Virus record (IMG/VR): IMGVR_UViG_3300023184_008416
Coordinates: 62,001-126,000 of that record
From: a virus
Direction: 5' to 3' (one strand)
DNA length: 64,000 nt
Shown here: positions 8,780 through 26,059 of the stretch, in pieces
Numbering within the stretch: the first letter of the stretch is position 1
How the letters are laid out: every line of letters begins with the position of its first letter
Program-made: the position numbers and the translations under genes
Notes under the pieces: generated by a model
Told to the model about the DNA's origin: nothing
The model's database searches: none
Seen by the model: the letters and a program-made list of their open reading frames with translations, nothing else

Positions 8780-10681
8780 ATGAAATCATTTTCACTAGAT
8801 CAACTCGCGGAAGGCATCCGCGATCGTAACGTCGGCGCTGAACGCAGCCGACTCATTGAAAAGTGGAGCCGCACAGGCCTCCTCCGCGGACTCGACGGCT
8901 TCAAGCGCGAAGCAATGTCGCAACTCCTCGAAAATCAGGCAGCACAGGTCCTCAAGGAGAGCAACAGCCTCTCCACCGGCGGTGGCAGCGTTGCCTCCTC
9001 CGGCCAGATCCAAGGCTTCACCAACATCGCTTTCCCAATCGTTCGCCGCGTCTTCGGTGGCCTCGTTGCCAACGAACTCGTCTCGATCCAACCAATGAGC
9101 CTCCCAAGCGGACTCATCTTCTACATCGACTACACCTACGGCAGTAACAAGGGTGGCGATGCAGGTGATCTCCTCTCTAACTCGGCTACATACGAGACAT
9201 ACACCCGCGGACAGTCCATCTACAACAACCCAACCGGCCGCGGCGTGCAGTCTGGTTCGTTGGCAACAGGTGGTATGTACGACCTCGTCAATGTTGGTTA
9301 CAGCAAGGTTCACAAGGCCTCGCTCGCCATCTCCGCTTCCAACGCTGATATCGGTGCTTGGAAGGGTGCCGATGGAACAACCTGGGCAGCTGCTGCAGCA
9401 GTTGCAACTCAGCTTGATCTCAGCGGCAGCAACGCTCGCTTCCTCAACTTCGACCCACAGGTCGACACAGACGTCACACAAAATCTTCTCGACGTTTGCT
9501 TCGTCCACGTTCCAACCTCCGCCATCGCGGCCGTCGTTCCAAACGCCGACCTCCTCGCGGTGGAAAATGCTGCTCTCTTTGGTTTCACATCAAACGGAAA
9601 CGCAGCTGCTTGGGGCGAGACATATCAAGGTGGAACAGGCGTCCTCAACCTTCGCCGTCTCACCAAGCGTGGTAACTGGACAGGTTCGGTCTTCACACCA
9701 GACCAACTCAACGGTTCTCACTATCAGTTCGTTGTGAAGCTCTCTAATGGCGGATCGGTTCCATCCGTTGGAACTGCTGCACTCACCGGCTCCTTCGCAA
9801 TTGCTGATAACGTAACAGCAACCTCTGGCGGTACAGGTTCAACTCTCACAGTGCCTTCCTTTGAGTCTGACTTCGGTGCAACCCCATCGCCAGCAATCCC
9901 AGAGATCGACATCAAGATCGAGTCAATCGCCATCACAGCTCAGACCCGTAAGCTCCGTGCTCGTTGGTCGCCAGAGCTCGCACAGGATCTCAACGCTTAC
10001 CACAGCCTCGACGCTGAGGTGGAGCTCACCTCGATCCTCTCGGAGCAAATTGCCCTCGAGATCGATCGCGAGATCCTCAACGACCTCCTCGCAACCGCCA
10101 ACGGCGCGAACTACTACTGGTCTCGTGCACCAGGCAAGTTCGTCAACAAAACAACCGGTGCTCAAATCTCGTTAGCTTCCAGCTTCCAGATTGGTCCACA
10201 ATTCACCGGTACTGTCCGCGAATGGTACGAGACCCTCATCGAAACAATCATCGACGTGGCAAACTCCATCCACCGCAAGACCCTCCGCGGATCCGCGAAC
10301 TTCATGGTCACAAGCCCTGACATCGCAACAATCCTCGAGAGCTCCGTCCTCTACAAGCCCAAGTACACACTCGACGGCGAGGGCCAGGTCGGATCACCAT
10401 TCACCATCGGCGCAGAACAAATCGGTACCCTTAGCAACCGCTTCACCGTCTACAAAGATCCTTACTTCATCCGTAACAAGATCCTCGTCGGCTACAAAGG
10501 CGGCTCCTACCTCGAGACCGGCTACGTCTACGCTCCTTACGTGCCACTCATCGTGACACCAACCATCTTCGCACCAGAGGATTTCACACCCCGCAAGGGC
10601 GTCATGACTCGCTATGGTAAGAAAATGGTGAGATCAGATTTTTACGGCACGGTGACTTGTTTAGACATGAATATCATATAA
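8780..10681 (+). CDS. 23: Major capsid protein (T4 gp23-like, HK97 fold)
   Basis: This is the main shell protein of the head. Family features include LIEKWSRTGLLRGLDGF near the N-terminus, FPIVRRVFGGLVANELVSIQ (about residues 85-105) and a conserved C-terminal part (YVYAPYVPLIVTP, then FTPRKGVMTRYGKKMV). The 633-residue length exceeds T4 gp23 (521). A gp21-type cleavage site LKE is predicted at residues 58-60, close to T4's cleavage after residue 65, so residues 1-60 are probably removed on maturation. Codon use is strongly skewed to C-ending codons, as expected for a very abundant protein. A TTGGAG site precedes the ATG and a strong terminator follows the stop. Confidence 0.95.
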   Translation: MKSFSLDQLAEGIRDRNVGAERSRLIEKWSRTGLLRGLDGFKREAMSQLLENQAAQVLKESNSLSTGGGSVASSGQIQGFTNIAFPIVRRVFGGLVANELVSIQPMSLPSGLIFYIDYTYGSNKGGDAGDLLSNSATYETYTRGQSIYNNPTGRGVQSGSLATGGMYDLVNVGYSKVHKASLAISASNADIGAWKGADGTTWAAAAAVATQLDLSGSNARFLNFDPQVDTDVTQNLLDVCFVHVPTSAIAAVVPNADLLAVENAALFGFTSNGNAAAWGETYQGGTGVLNLRRLTKRGNWTGSVFTPDQLNGSHYQFVVKLSNGGSVPSVGTAALTGSFAIADNVTATSGGTGSTLTVPSFESDFGATPSPAIPEIDIKIESIAITAQTRKLRARWSPELAQDLNAYHSLDAEVELTSILSEQIALEIDREILNDLLATANGANYYWSRAPGKFVNKTTGAQISLASSFQIGPQFTGTVREWYETLIETIIDVANSIHRKTLRGSANFMVTSPDIATILESSVLYKPKYTLDGEGQVGSPFTIGAEQIGTLSNRFTVYKDPYFIRNKILVGYKGGSYLETGYVYAPYVPLIVTPTIFAPEDFTPRKGVMTRYGKKMVRSDFYGTVTCLDMNII

Positions 10682-10703
10682 TCACAAACTACCAAGTTTG
10701 AGC

Positions 10704-10738
10704 GGAAAGGCCTTCGAAAGAGGGCCTTTTTGCTTTTC
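10704..10738 (+). terminator. Rho-independent terminator after the capsid gene
   Basis: A 10-bp stem (AAAGGCCTTC paired with GAGGGCCTTT) encloses a GAAA tetraloop, with one G-U pair, and is followed by a T-run. It lies 24 bases after the capsid stop and would end the head-module transcript. Confidence 0.9.
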
Positions 10739-10750
10739 TGCTGTTTGTTT

Positions 10751-10779
10751 TTTACAATTCGCTAATTACCATGTATTTT
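10751..10779 (+). promoter_or_regulatory. Sigma70-like promoter for the TnsA-like nuclease gene
   Basis: TTTACA and TATTTT are separated by 17 bases. The -10 box ends only 6 bases before the ATG at 10786, so the transcript would be leaderless or nearly so. No Shine-Dalgarno sequence precedes that ATG, which agrees. Confidence 0.5.
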
Positions 10780-10785
10780 TAAATC

Positions 10786-11646
10786 ATGATTACATGCAAA
10801 GAATGTGGTTGCGAATGTTCGGCTCAGAATGCTTTAGGATATCACTTACGATCTCATGGTCTGTCATATCCTGACTATGTTGTCAAACACGAATACGATA
10901 ATGTTTGGCCTCATTGTCATTGTGGAATAAAACTTCATTATAAGAAAGGAGGCTTTTCTCGTTTCTGTTCTAAGTCTTGTGCAGTGAGTGGAACCAATAA
11001 TCCAATGTCAGGAAAGATTGGAGATAAATCTCCGAATTATGGATTGAAAAGAACCAAAGAACAATTAAAGCATTATTCTGAAGGTTCCAAGAAGCGATGG
11101 CAGATTCATGGTAATAAGCTTCGAGAGATGATGCAGACATCGGAATACAGAGAAGCTCAATCAAAATCAAACAAAATTTCCTATGCAACTTCAGATAGAG
11201 CCAAAAGAACATCAGAATCAGTCAACCGTTTCTGGGCCGAATCACCTTTGGCCCCTGTTCTTCGTGAGGAAGCATCACAACGAGCGATTAAGTTACTTTC
11301 AGAAAACAAGATTGGACCACAGGCACCATTCAAACGTGAGACTTTGATTAATCCATGGACAGGCGAAGAAGAGCACATGCATTCATCATGGGAGTCTATC
11401 TTTTTCCAGTCGTGCATTTCAAGAAGATATGAAGTGACTAAGAATCATGGAATAACGATTCCATATAGGCATCCAGATGGAACGACTAGAAACTATATTC
11501 CTGATTTCTTTGGGAAGGAAGACAGGGTGTTGTACGAGATGAAGGGACGACATGATGAAGTCGATGAAGCTAAATGGTTAGCAGCACAGGAATATTGCGA
11601 CAGAATGGGTTGGGGATTTGTGGTGATGTTGTCTCCTGAAATTTGA
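10786..11646 (+). CDS. Free-standing endonuclease: C2H2 finger, NUMOD3-like motif, TnsA-like PD-(D/E)xK nuclease
   Basis: The 286-residue product starts with a finger (C4, C7, H20, H24) of the MucR/Ros type, ending HGLSYPDYV. A second Cys/His cluster follows (about residues 45-66) and then a NUMOD3-like segment (SPNYGLKRTKEQLKHYSEGS). The C-terminal nuclease shows SSWESIFFQ, RNYIPDFFG and LYEMKGR, the E, D and E-x-K positions of the TnsA-like fold. This is the same pattern as the gp4-like protein at 24072. It probably acts as a homing endonuclease inserted after the capsid gene. The function is inferred; the motifs are visible. Confidence 0.75.
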   Translation: MITCKECGCECSAQNALGYHLRSHGLSYPDYVVKHEYDNVWPHCHCGIKLHYKKGGFSRFCSKSCAVSGTNNPMSGKIGDKSPNYGLKRTKEQLKHYSEGSKKRWQIHGNKLREMMQTSEYREAQSKSNKISYATSDRAKRTSESVNRFWAESPLAPVLREEASQRAIKLLSENKIGPQAPFKRETLINPWTGEEEHMHSSWESIFFQSCISRRYEVTKNHGITIPYRHPDGTTRNYIPDFFGKEDRVLYEMKGRHDEVDEAKWLAAQEYCDRMGWGFVVMLSPEI

Positions 11647-11701: not shown

Positions 11702-13132
11702 ATGGACTGTAGGTTATGCGACTTTCGACACGATGACGCAAAGAAGCTGACCAATCACATCAGATCCGAACATGGATTGTCTTCTGAGGACTACACGGTA
11801 AGGGTTTATCATGATGGAATAAAGCCTGTCTGTAGGGAATGTCAAGCTCCTGTTAGGTATGTTTCTTTCTCTTTCAAGGCTTTCTGTAAGGATCATTCGT
11901 ACCTTGCCATGAAGGAAGGTGGATCTCGTGGTGGAAAAGCAGGGGCGTGGAATCGGGGATTGACGAAGGAAACAAATTTACGTATTAAAGAACAATCACT
12001 TAAAATGACGGGAGTTGGTAATCATTTTTATGGTCGTCAACATTCTCGAGATGCCTTACAAAAAATTAGCTTAAGTAAGTTATTGACAACATCATCTTTG
12101 CAAGAAAGATTATTTTCAAGGCAAAAAGAATTCAAATTAGTAACCTCAATTGATGATTACAAATCAAGGCAAGATCAGTATCTGTCATTTGAGTGTTTGA
12201 TTTGTGGTGAGATACAACCCAAGACATTACAAGCCTTTGAAAGAGGTAGTAGGTGTTATCGTTGTTACCCGGTTGGTAAATCCAATTGGGAATTAGATGT
12301 ATTTTCTTATGTTCAGATAAATGTTCCAGATGCAGTATCAGGAGACAAGAAGATTATTTCTCCGAAGGAGATTGACATTTATGTTCCTTCCAAAAAATTT
12401 GGAATTGAATGTCACGGATTGTATTGGCACAGTGAAGGAGCCAAACAAGATGAAATCTTTGACAAGAACAAACATTTAGATAAGTTCGTGTTGGCTTCCA
12501 ACAAAGGAATAAAGTTATTGCAGATATTTGAGGATGAGTGGAGAGACAAGAGAGAGATCTGTGAATCTATGATTCTTCATCGTTTAGGATTGAGCCAGCA
12601 TCGATGTAAGACATGGTCAACAAAAGTTGCAGAGTTGAGTACGAAAGAGCAAAGAGACTTCTTTGATTCTACGCATATCTCGGGTTACGTTCCATCAAAG
12701 ATCGTATGGGGATTGAAAGACAGGACTGGCAAAGTTGTAGCAGGATTGTCGTTGCGTGTTCCTCGTCATGGTAAGAAGTATGAAAGTTTTTTGGAGATAG
12801 CTCGATTTAGTACTGCTTTAAAAACATCTGTTCCTGGTGGTTTGTCTAAGTTATTAAAACGAGCAAAATCTTGGTGTGTTGAAAATGGATACAAGGGTAT
12901 CATGACTTATGTGGATAAACGTGTGGGTGAAGGAAATGGTTACAAATCTGCAGGATTTAAGCTAAGTGGATCGACATCCGCCGATTATTGGTACACCGAT
13001 AATCATTTACGTTATGACAGATTTAAATTCCGCGCCCAAAACGGCAAATCAGAAAAACAAATTGTTTCTGATGCCAAAGTTTCCAGGATTTATGGTTGTG
13101 GATCGCTGGTATTAATTTGCGAAATTTTATGA
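11702..13132 (+). CDS. Homing endonuclease: C2H2 finger, NUMOD3-like, Vsr-like nuclease, GNAT-like C-terminal domain
   Basis: The 476-residue product is modular. It has a finger at residues 3-24 (C3, C6, H19, H24), a second Cys-rich site, a WNRGLTKETNLRI motif, a NUMOD3-like NHFYGRQHSRDALQKIS, and a Cys pair module (CLIC, CYRC). A Vsr-like core follows (EIDIYVPSKKFGIECHGLYW, then LLQIFEDEWRDK). The last about 170 residues resemble a GNAT acyltransferase fold (VPGGLSKLL, NGYKSAGF). The same C-terminal half occurs in the minus-strand gene ending at 35844. A mobile element role is inferred. The promoter is probably just upstream (TATAAG 11 bases before ATG). Confidence 0.8.
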   Translation: MDCRLCDFRHDDAKKLTNHIRSEHGLSSEDYTVRVYHDGIKPVCRECQAPVRYVSFSFKAFCKDHSYLAMKEGGSRGGKAGAWNRGLTKETNLRIKEQSLKMTGVGNHFYGRQHSRDALQKISLSKLLTTSSLQERLFSRQKEFKLVTSIDDYKSRQDQYLSFECLICGEIQPKTLQAFERGSRCYRCYPVGKSNWELDVFSYVQINVPDAVSGDKKIISPKEIDIYVPSKKFGIECHGLYWHSEGAKQDEIFDKNKHLDKFVLASNKGIKLLQIFEDEWRDKREICESMILHRLGLSQHRCKTWSTKVAELSTKEQRDFFDSTHISGYVPSKIVWGLKDRTGKVVAGLSLRVPRHGKKYESFLEIARFSTALKTSVPGGLSKLLKRAKSWCVENGYKGIMTYVDKRVGEGNGYKSAGFKLSGSTSADYWYTDNHLRYDRFKFRAQNGKSEKQIVSDAKVSRIYGCGSLVLICEIL

Positions 13133-13780: not shown

Positions 13781-13808
13781 TTGACTGTTGTAAAGATTGA
13801 AGTATAAT
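13781..13808 (+). promoter_or_regulatory. Sigma70-like promoter for the HNH gene
   Basis: TTGACT and TATAAT are separated by 16 bases, a near-consensus promoter. The predicted transcription start falls at about 13815, exactly at an in-frame GTG. This decides the start of the HNH gene and implies a leaderless mRNA. Confidence 0.65.
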
Positions 13809-13814
13809 GTTGTT

Positions 13815-14171
13815 GTGAAGCGTCGCAGACATGGTCAGGACAAGTTACTCAAGGATCGGTGTGAGGTTTGTGGGTATGACCGGTCTGCGGCGTTGAACGT
13901 TCATCACATCATTCCGCGGTGTGATCCTCGGTGTACCAATAACAACGAGAATTTGGCGGTATTGTGTCATTCGTGCCATGACCTGGTACATGCCGGTGAG
14001 ATCACGATAATAGGTGTGTATTCATCTACGGCCGGTAGAAAATTATTGTGGTTTAAAGAAGGGGAAATACCTCCAATAGAAAAAGAATTTTGGTTGGTCA
14101 AGGAGAATCCACTGGTGATACGAGGTAAAGTCACGCCGCACCGGTCAGATCGTGGTGAAAATAATTTATAA
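13815..14171 (+). CDS. Small free-standing HNH endonuclease
   Basis: A Cys-Cys-bound HNH core is clear: CEVCGYDRSAALNVHHIIPR, then NNNENLAVLCHSCHDLVH. The treble-clef zinc cysteines (CEVC, CHSC) and the HH/N/H residues are all present. Its length is about 118 residues, with a basic N-terminus and an unassigned C-terminal extension. The GTG start is chosen because the longer TTG start at 13797 would lie inside the promoter. Unlike the other nucleases here it has no N-terminal C2H2 finger. It is probably a homing-type nuclease. Confidence 0.8.
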   Translation: MKRRRHGQDKLLKDRCEVCGYDRSAALNVHHIIPRCDPRCTNNNENLAVLCHSCHDLVHAGEITIIGVYSSTAGRKLLWFKEGEIPPIEKEFWLVKENPLVIRGKVTPHRSDRGENNL

Positions 14172-24071: not shown

Positions 24072-24434
24072 TTGAATCGTTGGTCAACAGGTCGATATAA
24101 AAATCAAAAAACTGGGGTTGTTTGTAAGTATCGGTCCTCTTGGGAGGCCATCTACATGGGTCTTCTGGATTCAGATCACAGGATTGTTACGTGGGAGTAT
24201 GAATCAATTCTTGTTTGTTATCTTCACGGAATTAAAGTCAAACGTTACATACCGGATTTTTTGGTGACTGTTAACACGGGAAAAAAAATTTTGGTAGAAA
24301 TTAAACCCGAAAGAATGAGAGATATCCCTGTCAACGCTGCCAAGAGAGCAGCTGTGATGCAAAAGTGTCAAGAAGAAGGTTGGATATATTACGAGTGGTC
24401 ACCCAATAATCCTGTTGTTCCTGAAGTTTTGTAA
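24072..24434 (+). CDS. 4: Head completion protein with TnsA-like nuclease fold (T4 gp4-like)
   Basis: T4 gp4 is needed to complete packaged heads before tail joining. The 120-residue product shows the family pattern GRYKNQKTG, YRSSWEAIYM, KRYIPDFLV and ILVEIKPERM, matching the E, D and E-x-K positions of PD-(D/E)xK nucleases. It starts at TTG, overlapping no neighbour. The motif set is strikingly like that of the homing-type nuclease at 10786 (SSWE, YIPDF, E-x-K). Assignment to gp4 rests on the remembered family pattern and on its place before the neck genes. Confidence 0.8.
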   Translation: MNRWSTGRYKNQKTGVVCKYRSSWEAIYMGLLDSDHRIVTWEYESILVCYLHGIKVKRYIPDFLVTVNTGKKILVEIKPERMRDIPVNAAKRAAVMQKCQEEGWIYYEWSPNNPVVPEVL

Positions 24435-24517
24435 TTTTGTACACCCTTAAAGTCTTAATGTAGTGTTAACCTCAACAACTGGCAAAAAATACTTGCCACT
24501 AGGAAAGGTAAATTTTC

Positions 24518-24766
24518 ATGAGCACCACGTCTAATCGTAATGCAGTCATTCGTAGCAGCGTCACTCGTAATGGTCGGTATCGTACTGAGACAGCACGTCG
24601 AGACGAAGGTACCCTTCGAGCTTCAGCCTTCACCGATCCAAATCGTAATTCAACTCGTATTTACATCGATCACCCAGATTACGGCACGATCTCGCTTAGT
24701 GGCCGCGAGGCACGTACTATCTTTAGGGTTTTGAATGAGCATTATAATTACACTGGTCGTCAGTGA
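24518..24766 (+). CDS. 82-residue Arg/Thr-rich protein of unknown function
   Basis: It has a GGAAAGG ribosome-binding site and ATG start. The N-terminal 35 residues are Arg, Ser and Thr rich and probably disordered; the C-terminal half looks folded (RIYIDHPDYGTISLSGREAR). The high Arg content suggests nucleic-acid contact, but no domain is recognised. A stem-loop terminator follows. Confidence 0.6.
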   Translation: MSTTSNRNAVIRSSVTRNGRYRTETARRDEGTLRASAFTDPNRNSTRIYIDHPDYGTISLSGREARTIFRVLNEHYNYTGRQ

Positions 24767-24787
24767 TTTAAGTAAGTGATGCAATTT

Positions 24788-24828
24788 ACAGCCAGCTCTC
24801 CTTAACTGGATTGCTGGCTGTTTATTAT
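24788..24828 (+). terminator. Rho-independent terminator or attenuator
   Basis: A 9-bp perfect stem (ACAGCCAGC with GCTGGCTGT) with a 16-base loop is followed by TTATTATT. The ribosome-binding site of the next gene begins almost at once, so partial read-through is likely. Confidence 0.75.
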
Positions 24829-24839
24829 TGGAGGAAGCA

Positions 24840-25019
24840 ATGTCAGCAAAAACTGAAAAATTGTTAGAGCAAATTAACCGTTATAAAAATACTATCCGTG
24901 AAATGGAAGAACAAGGTGAGGATCCTCACTCTATCAAGATTCAACTTGAAAAAGCATTGAACGAACTCAACGCAGCAAACAAAGTGCTTAGTGAAAGTGT
25001 AACAATCCTGAAAGGATGA
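24840..25019 (+). CDS. 59-residue coiled-coil protein
   Basis: A strong GGAGGAAG site precedes the ATG. The product is one charged amphipathic helix pair (LLEQINRYKNTIREMEEQGE), probably a coiled coil or helical hairpin. No known family. It begins a short operon leading to the endolysin. Confidence 0.6.
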   Translation: MSAKTEKLLEQINRYKNTIREMEEQGEDPHSIKIQLEKALNELNAANKVLSESVTILKG

Positions 25020-25026
25020 TCAAGAC

Positions 25027-25245
25027 ATGAACTCCGCAGACATTTATCAACCCATTGTAGCGACTTCGATGGGAACAGCCCCCATCACTTTAAGGGTGAT
25101 TACAACACCAAATAATATGGAATATGTGGGTGGTGTTCCTTCAACTGCAACCAAGGCTGAAACTTATGTATTATATTCTGCGTTACCAGACGATCTCAAA
25201 GAAAGAGTCAAAGTAGCAGTACAAGCTTTAATCACGGCAGGATGA
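25027..25245 (+). CDS. 72-residue protein of unknown function
   Basis: It starts 7 bases after the previous stop, with GATCAAGA just upstream as a weak ribosome-binding site. The product has a beta-prone first half and a helical C-terminus (DDLKERVKVAVQALITAG). It precedes the endolysin by 10 bases. No recognisable motif. Confidence 0.55.
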   Translation: MNSADIYQPIVATSMGTAPITLRVITTPNNMEYVGGVPSTATKAETYVLYSALPDDLKERVKVAVQALITAG

Positions 25246-25255
25246 TACATAAACC

Positions 25256-26014
25256 ATGTCAGTTTTAATTAAATTAGGTTCTGTTGATCCCACGGTCATT
25301 CAATGGCAACAATTTTTGAAAGGACAATTTCCAGAGTCAGAGATTGTTGCCAGTGGAAATTTTGATGGTGTTACAGACTCTGTTACCAAAAGGTTTCAAC
25401 AATTACATAGATTAACACCTGACGGTGTGGTTGGATCTAAGACCTTGCAGCTCGCTCTTTCGTTGGGTCTATGTGTTACTGATCAACCGACCACTAACGG
25501 TATTTTACCGATCACAGCAGCACAAAGAGAAATTCTTTTTGGTCATTTTAATTATACCCCTGCTCCCGTGGCAAATAATCCTGAGGCCATCAAGATTGAT
25601 CAATCTTGGATTAATTCCAATATTACAAGTGTCACTATTGATGAATTAGCAAACATTTCTGGTGCACCTAAAAATTGTACAATACCATTTAATCATGCTG
25701 CAGCGAGTCAATTAAAGTCTTTATTTGGTGCGTGGTCATCGGCAGGTCTGTTGGACAGAATATTGACTTGGGACGGTTCATGGGCTCCTCGGTTCATACG
25801 TGGATCCCGAACTACGTTGTCAAATCATGCGTGGGGAACAGCCTTTGACATTAATGCTCGGTGGAATCCGTTAGGTACAGTTCCACCAGCAATCGGTGAT
25901 AAAGGTTGCACGAGAGAACTCGTGTCAATAGCAGAAGATAATGGTTTCTTTTGGGGTGGAAATTTTTCAAAAAGACCAGACGGTATGCACTTTGAGTGTG
26001 CGATGTTGAAGTAA
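25256..26014 (+). CDS. Endolysin: peptidoglycan-binding domain plus M15 peptidase
   Basis: The 252-residue product has an N-terminal peptidoglycan-binding domain (about residues 8-72; FDGVTDSVTKRFQQLHRLTP, DGVVGSKT). A C-terminal D-Ala-D-Ala carboxypeptidase/L-Ala-D-Glu peptidase of family M15 follows. The zinc ligands are visible: H191 and D198 in SNHAWGTAFDIN and H245 in GMHFE, with the GFFWGGNF segment between. It would cut peptide cross-links for lysis or entry. There is no signal peptide, so release would need a holin, or it may be virion-associated given its tail-gene neighbours. No holin is seen adjacent. Confidence 0.9.
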   Translation: MSVLIKLGSVDPTVIQWQQFLKGQFPESEIVASGNFDGVTDSVTKRFQQLHRLTPDGVVGSKTLQLALSLGLCVTDQPTTNGILPITAAQREILFGHFNYTPAPVANNPEAIKIDQSWINSNITSVTIDELANISGAPKNCTIPFNHAAASQLKSLFGAWSSAGLLDRILTWDGSWAPRFIRGSRTTLSNHAWGTAFDINARWNPLGTVPPAIGDKGCTRELVSIAEDNGFFWGGNFSKRPDGMHFECAMLK

Positions 26015-26059
26015 TTGATTAGATGATTCAATCAAGAATTGTGTACCATACATATTGGT

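Follow-up and report, generated by a model that had tools for sequence, protein, structure and literature searches.

The gene at 10786-11646 (plus strand) can with good confidence be described as a free-standing homing-endonuclease-like gene (HEG) of the site 3' of gp23, composed of modular halves and carrying a nuclease of the gp4/TnsA type, for which cleavage, target and homing are predicted. It lies in a window of 64,000 nucleotides that corresponds to positions 62001-126000 of a virus record of 161,915 bases, that of a T4-like phage. Its upstream neighbor is a gp23-like major capsid protein (MCP) gene (8780-10681, plus strand; phrog_138 major head protein, 1e-73). The two genes are separated by a 104-nt spacer (10682-10785, plus strand) with a terminator-like hairpin and a cassette-specific leader, which was found to differ by HEG type when 26 loci were compared by eye. 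The HEG was recognized from Pfam and PHROG matches and from the MCP-side position of its relatives; its 286-aa product combines a type I nuclease with N-module A.

A second HEG follows in tandem (11702-13132, plus strand; 476 aa; phrog_3339 homing endonuclease, 5.5e-70), which we take to be probably of the EDxHD/Vsr-like type. The N-terminus of its product is distantly similar to that of 10786 (33% to residues 3-99 of the latter). Beyond this gene, an HNH gene (13797-14171) was detected by Pfam and PHROG matches. In the spacers of type B cassettes (L011 and others), a TATAAATA-like motif, presumably late-promoter-like, is located ahead of the HEG; the exact TATAAATA motif had no match in the window.

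The nuclease domain of 10786 occupies aa 185-286 (11338-11643, plus strand) and was assigned to the gp4/TnsA-like PD-(D/E)XK nucleases from Pfam, PHROG, invariant residues, the structural model and the PDB match. The earlier note had reported that its catalytic pattern recurs in the gp4-like protein encoded at 24072, and this was confirmed: HSSWE (E203), RNYIPDFFG (D240) and E251-x-K253 of 10786 correspond to RSSWE (E25), KRYIPDFLV (D62) and E76-x-K78 of 24072, in the same order and with similar spacing (37 residues from E to D in both proteins, and 11 in 10786 versus 14 in 24072 from D to E). The candidate catalytic residues E203, D240, E251 and K253 were invariant in 25 HEG sequences, and E25, D62, E76 and K78 were invariant in the 19 sequences of the 24072 set. 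Direct BLASTP comparison of the two proteins gave an E value of 5e-7 with 32% identity over 94 columns. Both proteins matched Pfam Tn7_TnsA-like_N above the curated cut-off (1.3e-8 for 10786 and 1.3e-9 for 24072) and phrog_218 'head closure' (7.4e-9 and 1.5e-19, respectively). The top PHROG family of 10786 was phrog_15427 'endonuclease' (7.5e-11), which covered residues 197-280, that is, the nuclease part only.

Structure prediction of both domains, which had been proposed as a check, agreed with these matches. In the AlphaFold model of the 10786 nuclease domain, pLDDT by block was mostly 85-96, the model of 24072 had a mean pLDDT of 91.8, and the order of strands and helices was alike in the two models. 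For both, the best PDB structure was TnsA (1t0f, 1f1z), at about 13-16% identity; the E value was 1.3e-5 for 24072, and for the whole 10786 model it was 5e-3 (probability 1.00), short of 0.001. Thus, 10786 has both the fold and the E...D...E-x-K arrangement of the TnsA/gp4 branch of PD-(D/E)XK nucleases. Sequence search of the PDB with 10786 returned chance matches only, a search with the gp4 profile A1 returned only T7 endonuclease I with weak scores (E 0.43-0.74), and one profile scan (A5) of cellular genomes found 12 weak relatives. The profile, BLAST and fold results ruled out mere convergence of the motifs between 10786 and 24072; in 10786, the nuclease domain is homologous to phage gp4 and to Tn7 TnsA, and the kinship that the earlier note had suspected is real. 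At the same time, 10786 is not itself a gp4, being a protein of 286 aa with an N-module and falling into a separate clade.

A putative zinc-finger/DNA-binding module takes up the first 60 residues of 10786 (10786-10965, plus strand). It was identified by a CxxC...HxxxH pattern seen by eye, by a NUMOD3 match below the Pfam cut-off and by the model, in which pLDDT ranged from about 90 to 63; residues 60-100 were poorly modelled. The module would bind DNA.

The two halves of these genes were found in different combinations. Over the N-terminal 75 aa, the window protein and its counterpart from L011 were 33% identical, but over the C-terminal 110 aa they were 96% identical. In the DNA, identity between the two rose from 37-60% to 92-98% near 11200-11220, so that the half common to both genes spans 11220-11643 (plus strand), although the corresponding MCP genes were only 82% identical in their last 300 bp. 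Among representatives of types I-B and II-B, identity was 54-66% in the N-terminus and 27-36% in the nuclease. Because the halves are swapped both between types I-B and II-B and between the window and L011, it may be concluded that each half, be it DNA-binding or nuclease, moves as a unit, and in this exchange 10786 displays the modular combination of a DNA-binding part and a nuclease that characterizes HEGs.

All 18 close relatives of 10786 in viral contigs lay directly 3' of the MCP gene, and in a wider scan this was the case for 27 of 33 loci, 16 of the loci being contigs of the first set. The occupancy of the site was polymorphic. When the best 80 of 599 MCP relatives were taken and the 50 with at least 1 kb of downstream sequence were inspected, 9 carried a gp4-like HEG, 4 an EDxHD-type HEG or a fragment of one, and 37 neither. 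Near-identical phages without the 10786-type gene were also found. Compared with L014, the flanks of the HEG-less site of L093 were 93.7% (600 bp) and 90.2% (946 bp) identical; compared with L096, they were 87.8% and 74.0% identical. At the 3' junction, the homology of L014 and L096 resumed at position +34 of L093 after the MCP stop codon. The 5' junction at L093 was not sharp, type A cassettes having a leader of their own; type B cassettes shared the leader with L093 to about +33. Decayed copies were present as well, the gene of L012 being frameshifted and that of L014 broken, as expected of selfish genes. Thus, 10786 is an insertion beside a conserved gene, with relatives that lack the HEG, and its designation as a homing-type nuclease in the earlier note is supported by this insertion pattern together with the decay and the module swapping. 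At another locus, L098, a 72-nt repeat (1074-1145 and 1906-1977; 85% identical), composed of the 3' end of the capsid gene, the spacer and the terminator-like hairpin, is present on both sides of an insert of about 760 bp.

The stand-alone gp4-like nuclease at 24072-24434 (plus strand; 120 aa, TTG start) had been regarded as the phage's own head-completion protein, and this identification was not supported. A second gp4 gene was found outside the window (G000:C1:54177-54578), which scored better on phrog_218 than 24072 (8.8e-26 vs 1.5e-19) and was followed by a RuvC-like gene, with the same neighbors kept in the relative L045. This comparison is based on the phrog_218 scores rather than on the alignment A1, since A1 included 24072 itself and the score of 24072 against it was therefore inflated. 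The view of 24072 as a simple gp4 was rejected in favor of the better candidate, and it is unlikely that 24072 serves this phage as its gp4.

The sequence of 24072 was instead close to those of HEGs. It shared 42-52% identity with the nuclease domains of type II gp23-site HEGs, including 47-48% with the HEGs of L247 and L103, and its start coincided with the linker of the HEGs. The 15 relatives that matched it best in viral contigs were all HEGs, 14 of them with an MCP gene directly upstream; several of the 15 are contigs or near-copies from earlier sets, and the alignment behind this search was made largely of those HEGs. A search with 24072 alone yielded 3 loci only. In G014, about 30 bp separated the orthologues of the flanking genes w23426 and w26039, and both 24072 and the endolysin gene were missing between them. 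In the window, 24072 shares the interval between w23426 and w26039 with small ORFs and an endolysin-like gene (25256-26014), which lie within 24435-26038. Considering the kinship with type II HEGs, the linker-coincident start and the gap in G014, 24072 may represent a HEG nuclease from which the DNA-binding half was lost, or the ancestor of a domain that HEGs took up; it looks like the nuclease domain of a type II HEG minus the DNA-binding half.

The relationships among these domains were studied with three trees. The 41-row tree contained 41 of 42 domains, one truncated gp4 being omitted. For the 85-row tree, 8 of 152 domains were dropped for length and the rest were thinned at 72% identity; T7 endonuclease I, X_G013b, contig-edge ORFs, L181 and L277 had been omitted beforehand, and L185 and L238 were relabelled by hand. 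The rows of the 40-row tree were hand-picked. In the 85-row tree, 24072 grouped with the nuclease of HEG L247 (100/91, starred) and then with L108 and L151 (99/92, starred), all three of which are HEGs adjoining gp23. In the 40-row tree, type II HEGs grouped with 24072 (81/89), and both joined the gp4 of their own lineage (94/86). Type I HEGs joined the HEGs of Bacillus phage Moonbeam and LR756508 in the 41-row tree (98/92, starred) and formed a separate clade with L193 and L195 in the 85-row tree (99/100, starred), where the link to Moonbeam and LR756508 was missing. AU tests rejected none of the tested groupings: on the 41-row tree, p was 0.195 for type I HEGs with 24072, 0.157 for type I HEGs with the own-lineage gp4, 0.293 for all HEGs together and 0.388 for all gp4 proteins together; on the 40-row tree, p was 0.218 for gp4 with 24072 and 0.109 for type I HEGs with 24072. 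Because no grouping was rejected and the trees disagreed, the claim made here is one of homology and exchange in either direction, and the direction of transfer is left both ways since the domain has only about 100 residues.

These results make it somewhat more probable than otherwise that type II gp23-site HEGs and 24072 have a recent common nuclease that branches with the own-lineage gp4, either because a HEG took up a gp4-like domain or because 24072 lost a DNA-binding half. The close identity to L247 and L103, the start at the linker, the starred nodes of the 85-row tree, the MCP-side position of the best relatives and the gap in G014 all argue for it. However, the node joining type II HEGs and 24072 in the 40-row tree reached just 81/89, the grouping of gp4 with 24072 was retained by the AU test, a single gene of the 24072 type was seen, and the relative search relied on an alignment mostly of those same HEGs. 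This history is compatible with the description of 10786 as a modular HEG and does not exclude it.

A direct capture, in which 10786 acquired its nuclease from the own-lineage gp4 or gp4 acquired it from 10786, is unlikely. The homology of 10786 and 24072 and the AU tests, which retained type I HEGs both with 24072 and with the own-lineage gp4, speak for such an event, but it was absent from the free trees, in which type I HEGs went with Moonbeam and LR756508 (41 rows) or with L193 and L195 (85 rows), and the identity of 10786 and 24072 was only about 32%; the Moonbeam and LR756508 link did not itself recur with 85 rows. The special link between 10786 and 24072 that had been suggested in the earlier note was likewise not borne out, since 10786 falls into a separate HEG clade and 24072 goes with the other HEG type, even though the AU tests did not reject the pair. 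As for the proposed capture between a virion nuclease and a mobile element, its direct form involving 10786 and the phage's own gp4 was not supported, but the general idea survives as an exchange through type II HEGs and 24072 with the own-lineage gp4. Exchange of the nuclease between gp4-type proteins and HEGs, in either direction, does look real. Slightly less probable still than direct capture is that 10786 is an ordinary, immobile accessory or packaging nuclease: it is situated among the head genes and has the domain of gp4, a nuclease on which morphogenesis depends according to PMC7824862, citing Benler 2020, but the presence/absence polymorphism, the decayed copies, the swapped halves and the alternation with EDxHD-type HEGs at the site argue against this.

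A homing-type nuclease with a gp4/TnsA-like domain had been considered unusual; it is less so, since many phages were found to have HEGs with gp4-like domains. Two scans of viral contigs gave 111 ORFs with such a domain; when a domain start beyond residue 70 was taken to define a HEG, 66 were HEGs, L238 and L277 being doubtful among them, and 45 were short. In Proteus phage PM2 and its relatives, including Salmonella phage S16, a gp4-like HEG lies inside uvsW, and in PM2 it has Pfam Intein_splicing matches on either side, the second below the cut-off. In Salmonella phage SEA1 and others, the HEG lies between the halves of gp17 (terminase), which have split-intein-like ends by eye; Pfam gave no intein match on these gp17 halves. 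A gp4-like HEG was also found between the phoH halves of Campylobacter phage CP20, and a free-standing one in LR756508 between genes that resemble gp47 and gp46 by reading.

Several further arrangements were observed. At L033:467-2212 and L034:843-2594, which belong to Shewanella phage Thanatos-2 and Escherichia phage G2494, a single open frame combines the first half of the terminase gene with an intein-like stretch and a gp4-like HEG. The phoH-associated HEG of Campylobacter phage CP21 (L028:3313-4435) is broken into two annotated genes, named endonuclease and head closure, so that pieces of a gp4-like HEG have been mis-named as head proteins. L057 (G012), a record with a gp23-site HEG, has in addition a HEG-like gene of 305 aa; its gp4-like nuclease is of a third kind and groups with Xanthomonas phage phiXF1.

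On the evidence of its sequence, 10786 is an intact member of a modular group of HEG-like genes that have a nuclease of the gp4/TnsA type, and its activity is predicted. With its zinc-finger/NUMOD-like N-terminal part, the protein would bind to a target within gp23 of HEG-less phages or close to it, its C-terminal PD-(D/E)XK domain would cut there in a site-specific manner, and recombination repair would then copy the cassette into the cut gp23 site, at which DNA-binding and nuclease halves recombine as modules. The nuclease is a member of the superfamily from which gp4, TnsA and probably T7 endonuclease I come. Since the cutting domain belongs to the gp4 family and the halves are freely swapped among relatives, a virion enzyme and a selfish element appear to share one nuclease toolkit. 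A stronger version is tentative and rather doubtful as a whole: the head-completion nuclease and the gp23-site HEGs would draw on one nuclease pool with recent traffic, 24072 being a HEG nuclease that lost its DNA-binding half and came to reside in the late gene cluster, with type II HEGs having received their nuclease from the own-lineage gp4 or given it to gp4. Provided that they are active, these genes would constitute a modular group of HEGs that is widespread both beside gp23 and within interrupted or intein-split genes, would link a virion-assembly enzyme to selfish DNA, and would offer a concrete place to test the direction of domain movement. How 24072 is related to type II HEGs most deserves to be followed up.

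Among known systems, phrog_15427 is similar in having a NUMOD/zinc-finger-like N-terminal part and a C-terminal gp4-like nuclease, and the Moonbeam endonuclease is annotated 'contains NUMOD3 domain'; however, 10786 matches its nuclease part only and has its own N-module, genomic site and clade. The EDxHD/Vsr-like HEGs, such as 11702, occupy the same gp23 site and have an N-module of the same general kind but a nuclease core other than that of 10786; neither phrog_3339 nor phrog_559 was among the 10 families listed for 10786, which does not belong with them. T4 segD is also a free-standing HEG beside gp23, situated, according to PMC2988022, between genes 23 and 24 and with an unknown target, but its GIY-YIG nuclease is of a family unrelated to 10786. 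The T5orf172 HEGs of ICP1 and its relatives resemble the present group in domain shuffling and in clustering near terminase and capsid genes (PMC10448857), but differ in their GIY-YIG-type nuclease; the main text of that paper makes no mention of gp4, TnsA or PHROG. PMC3322345 describes Hef of phage U5, which may be akin to the present group, as a free-standing endonuclease that resembles no known homing family and calls proteins of Campylobacter phage IBB_35 Hef-like. PD-(D/E)XK nucleases are one of six homing endonuclease families in PMC6083498, and the literature search, which covered open-licence papers, found no account of a homing family of the gp4/TnsA branch.

The nuclease itself can be compared with T4 gp4 and TnsA. 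In 2005, gp4 was predicted to be a PD-(D/E)XK nuclease near TnsA and T7 endonuclease I (PMC1189080), and according to PMC7824862, which cites Benler 2020, packaging depends on the non-specific DNase activity of T4 gp4. T4 gp4 (phrog_218) has the same PD-(D/E)XK domain and catalytic pattern as 10786, whereas it is short and lacks the N-terminal DNA-binding module, 10786 having about 185 additional residues and a polymorphic position. Tn7 TnsA, finally, is the top structural match of both models and the namesake of their Pfam match Tn7_TnsA-like_N, but no neighboring TnsB or TnsC genes were noted, and 10786 and 24072 match only its N-terminal domain.
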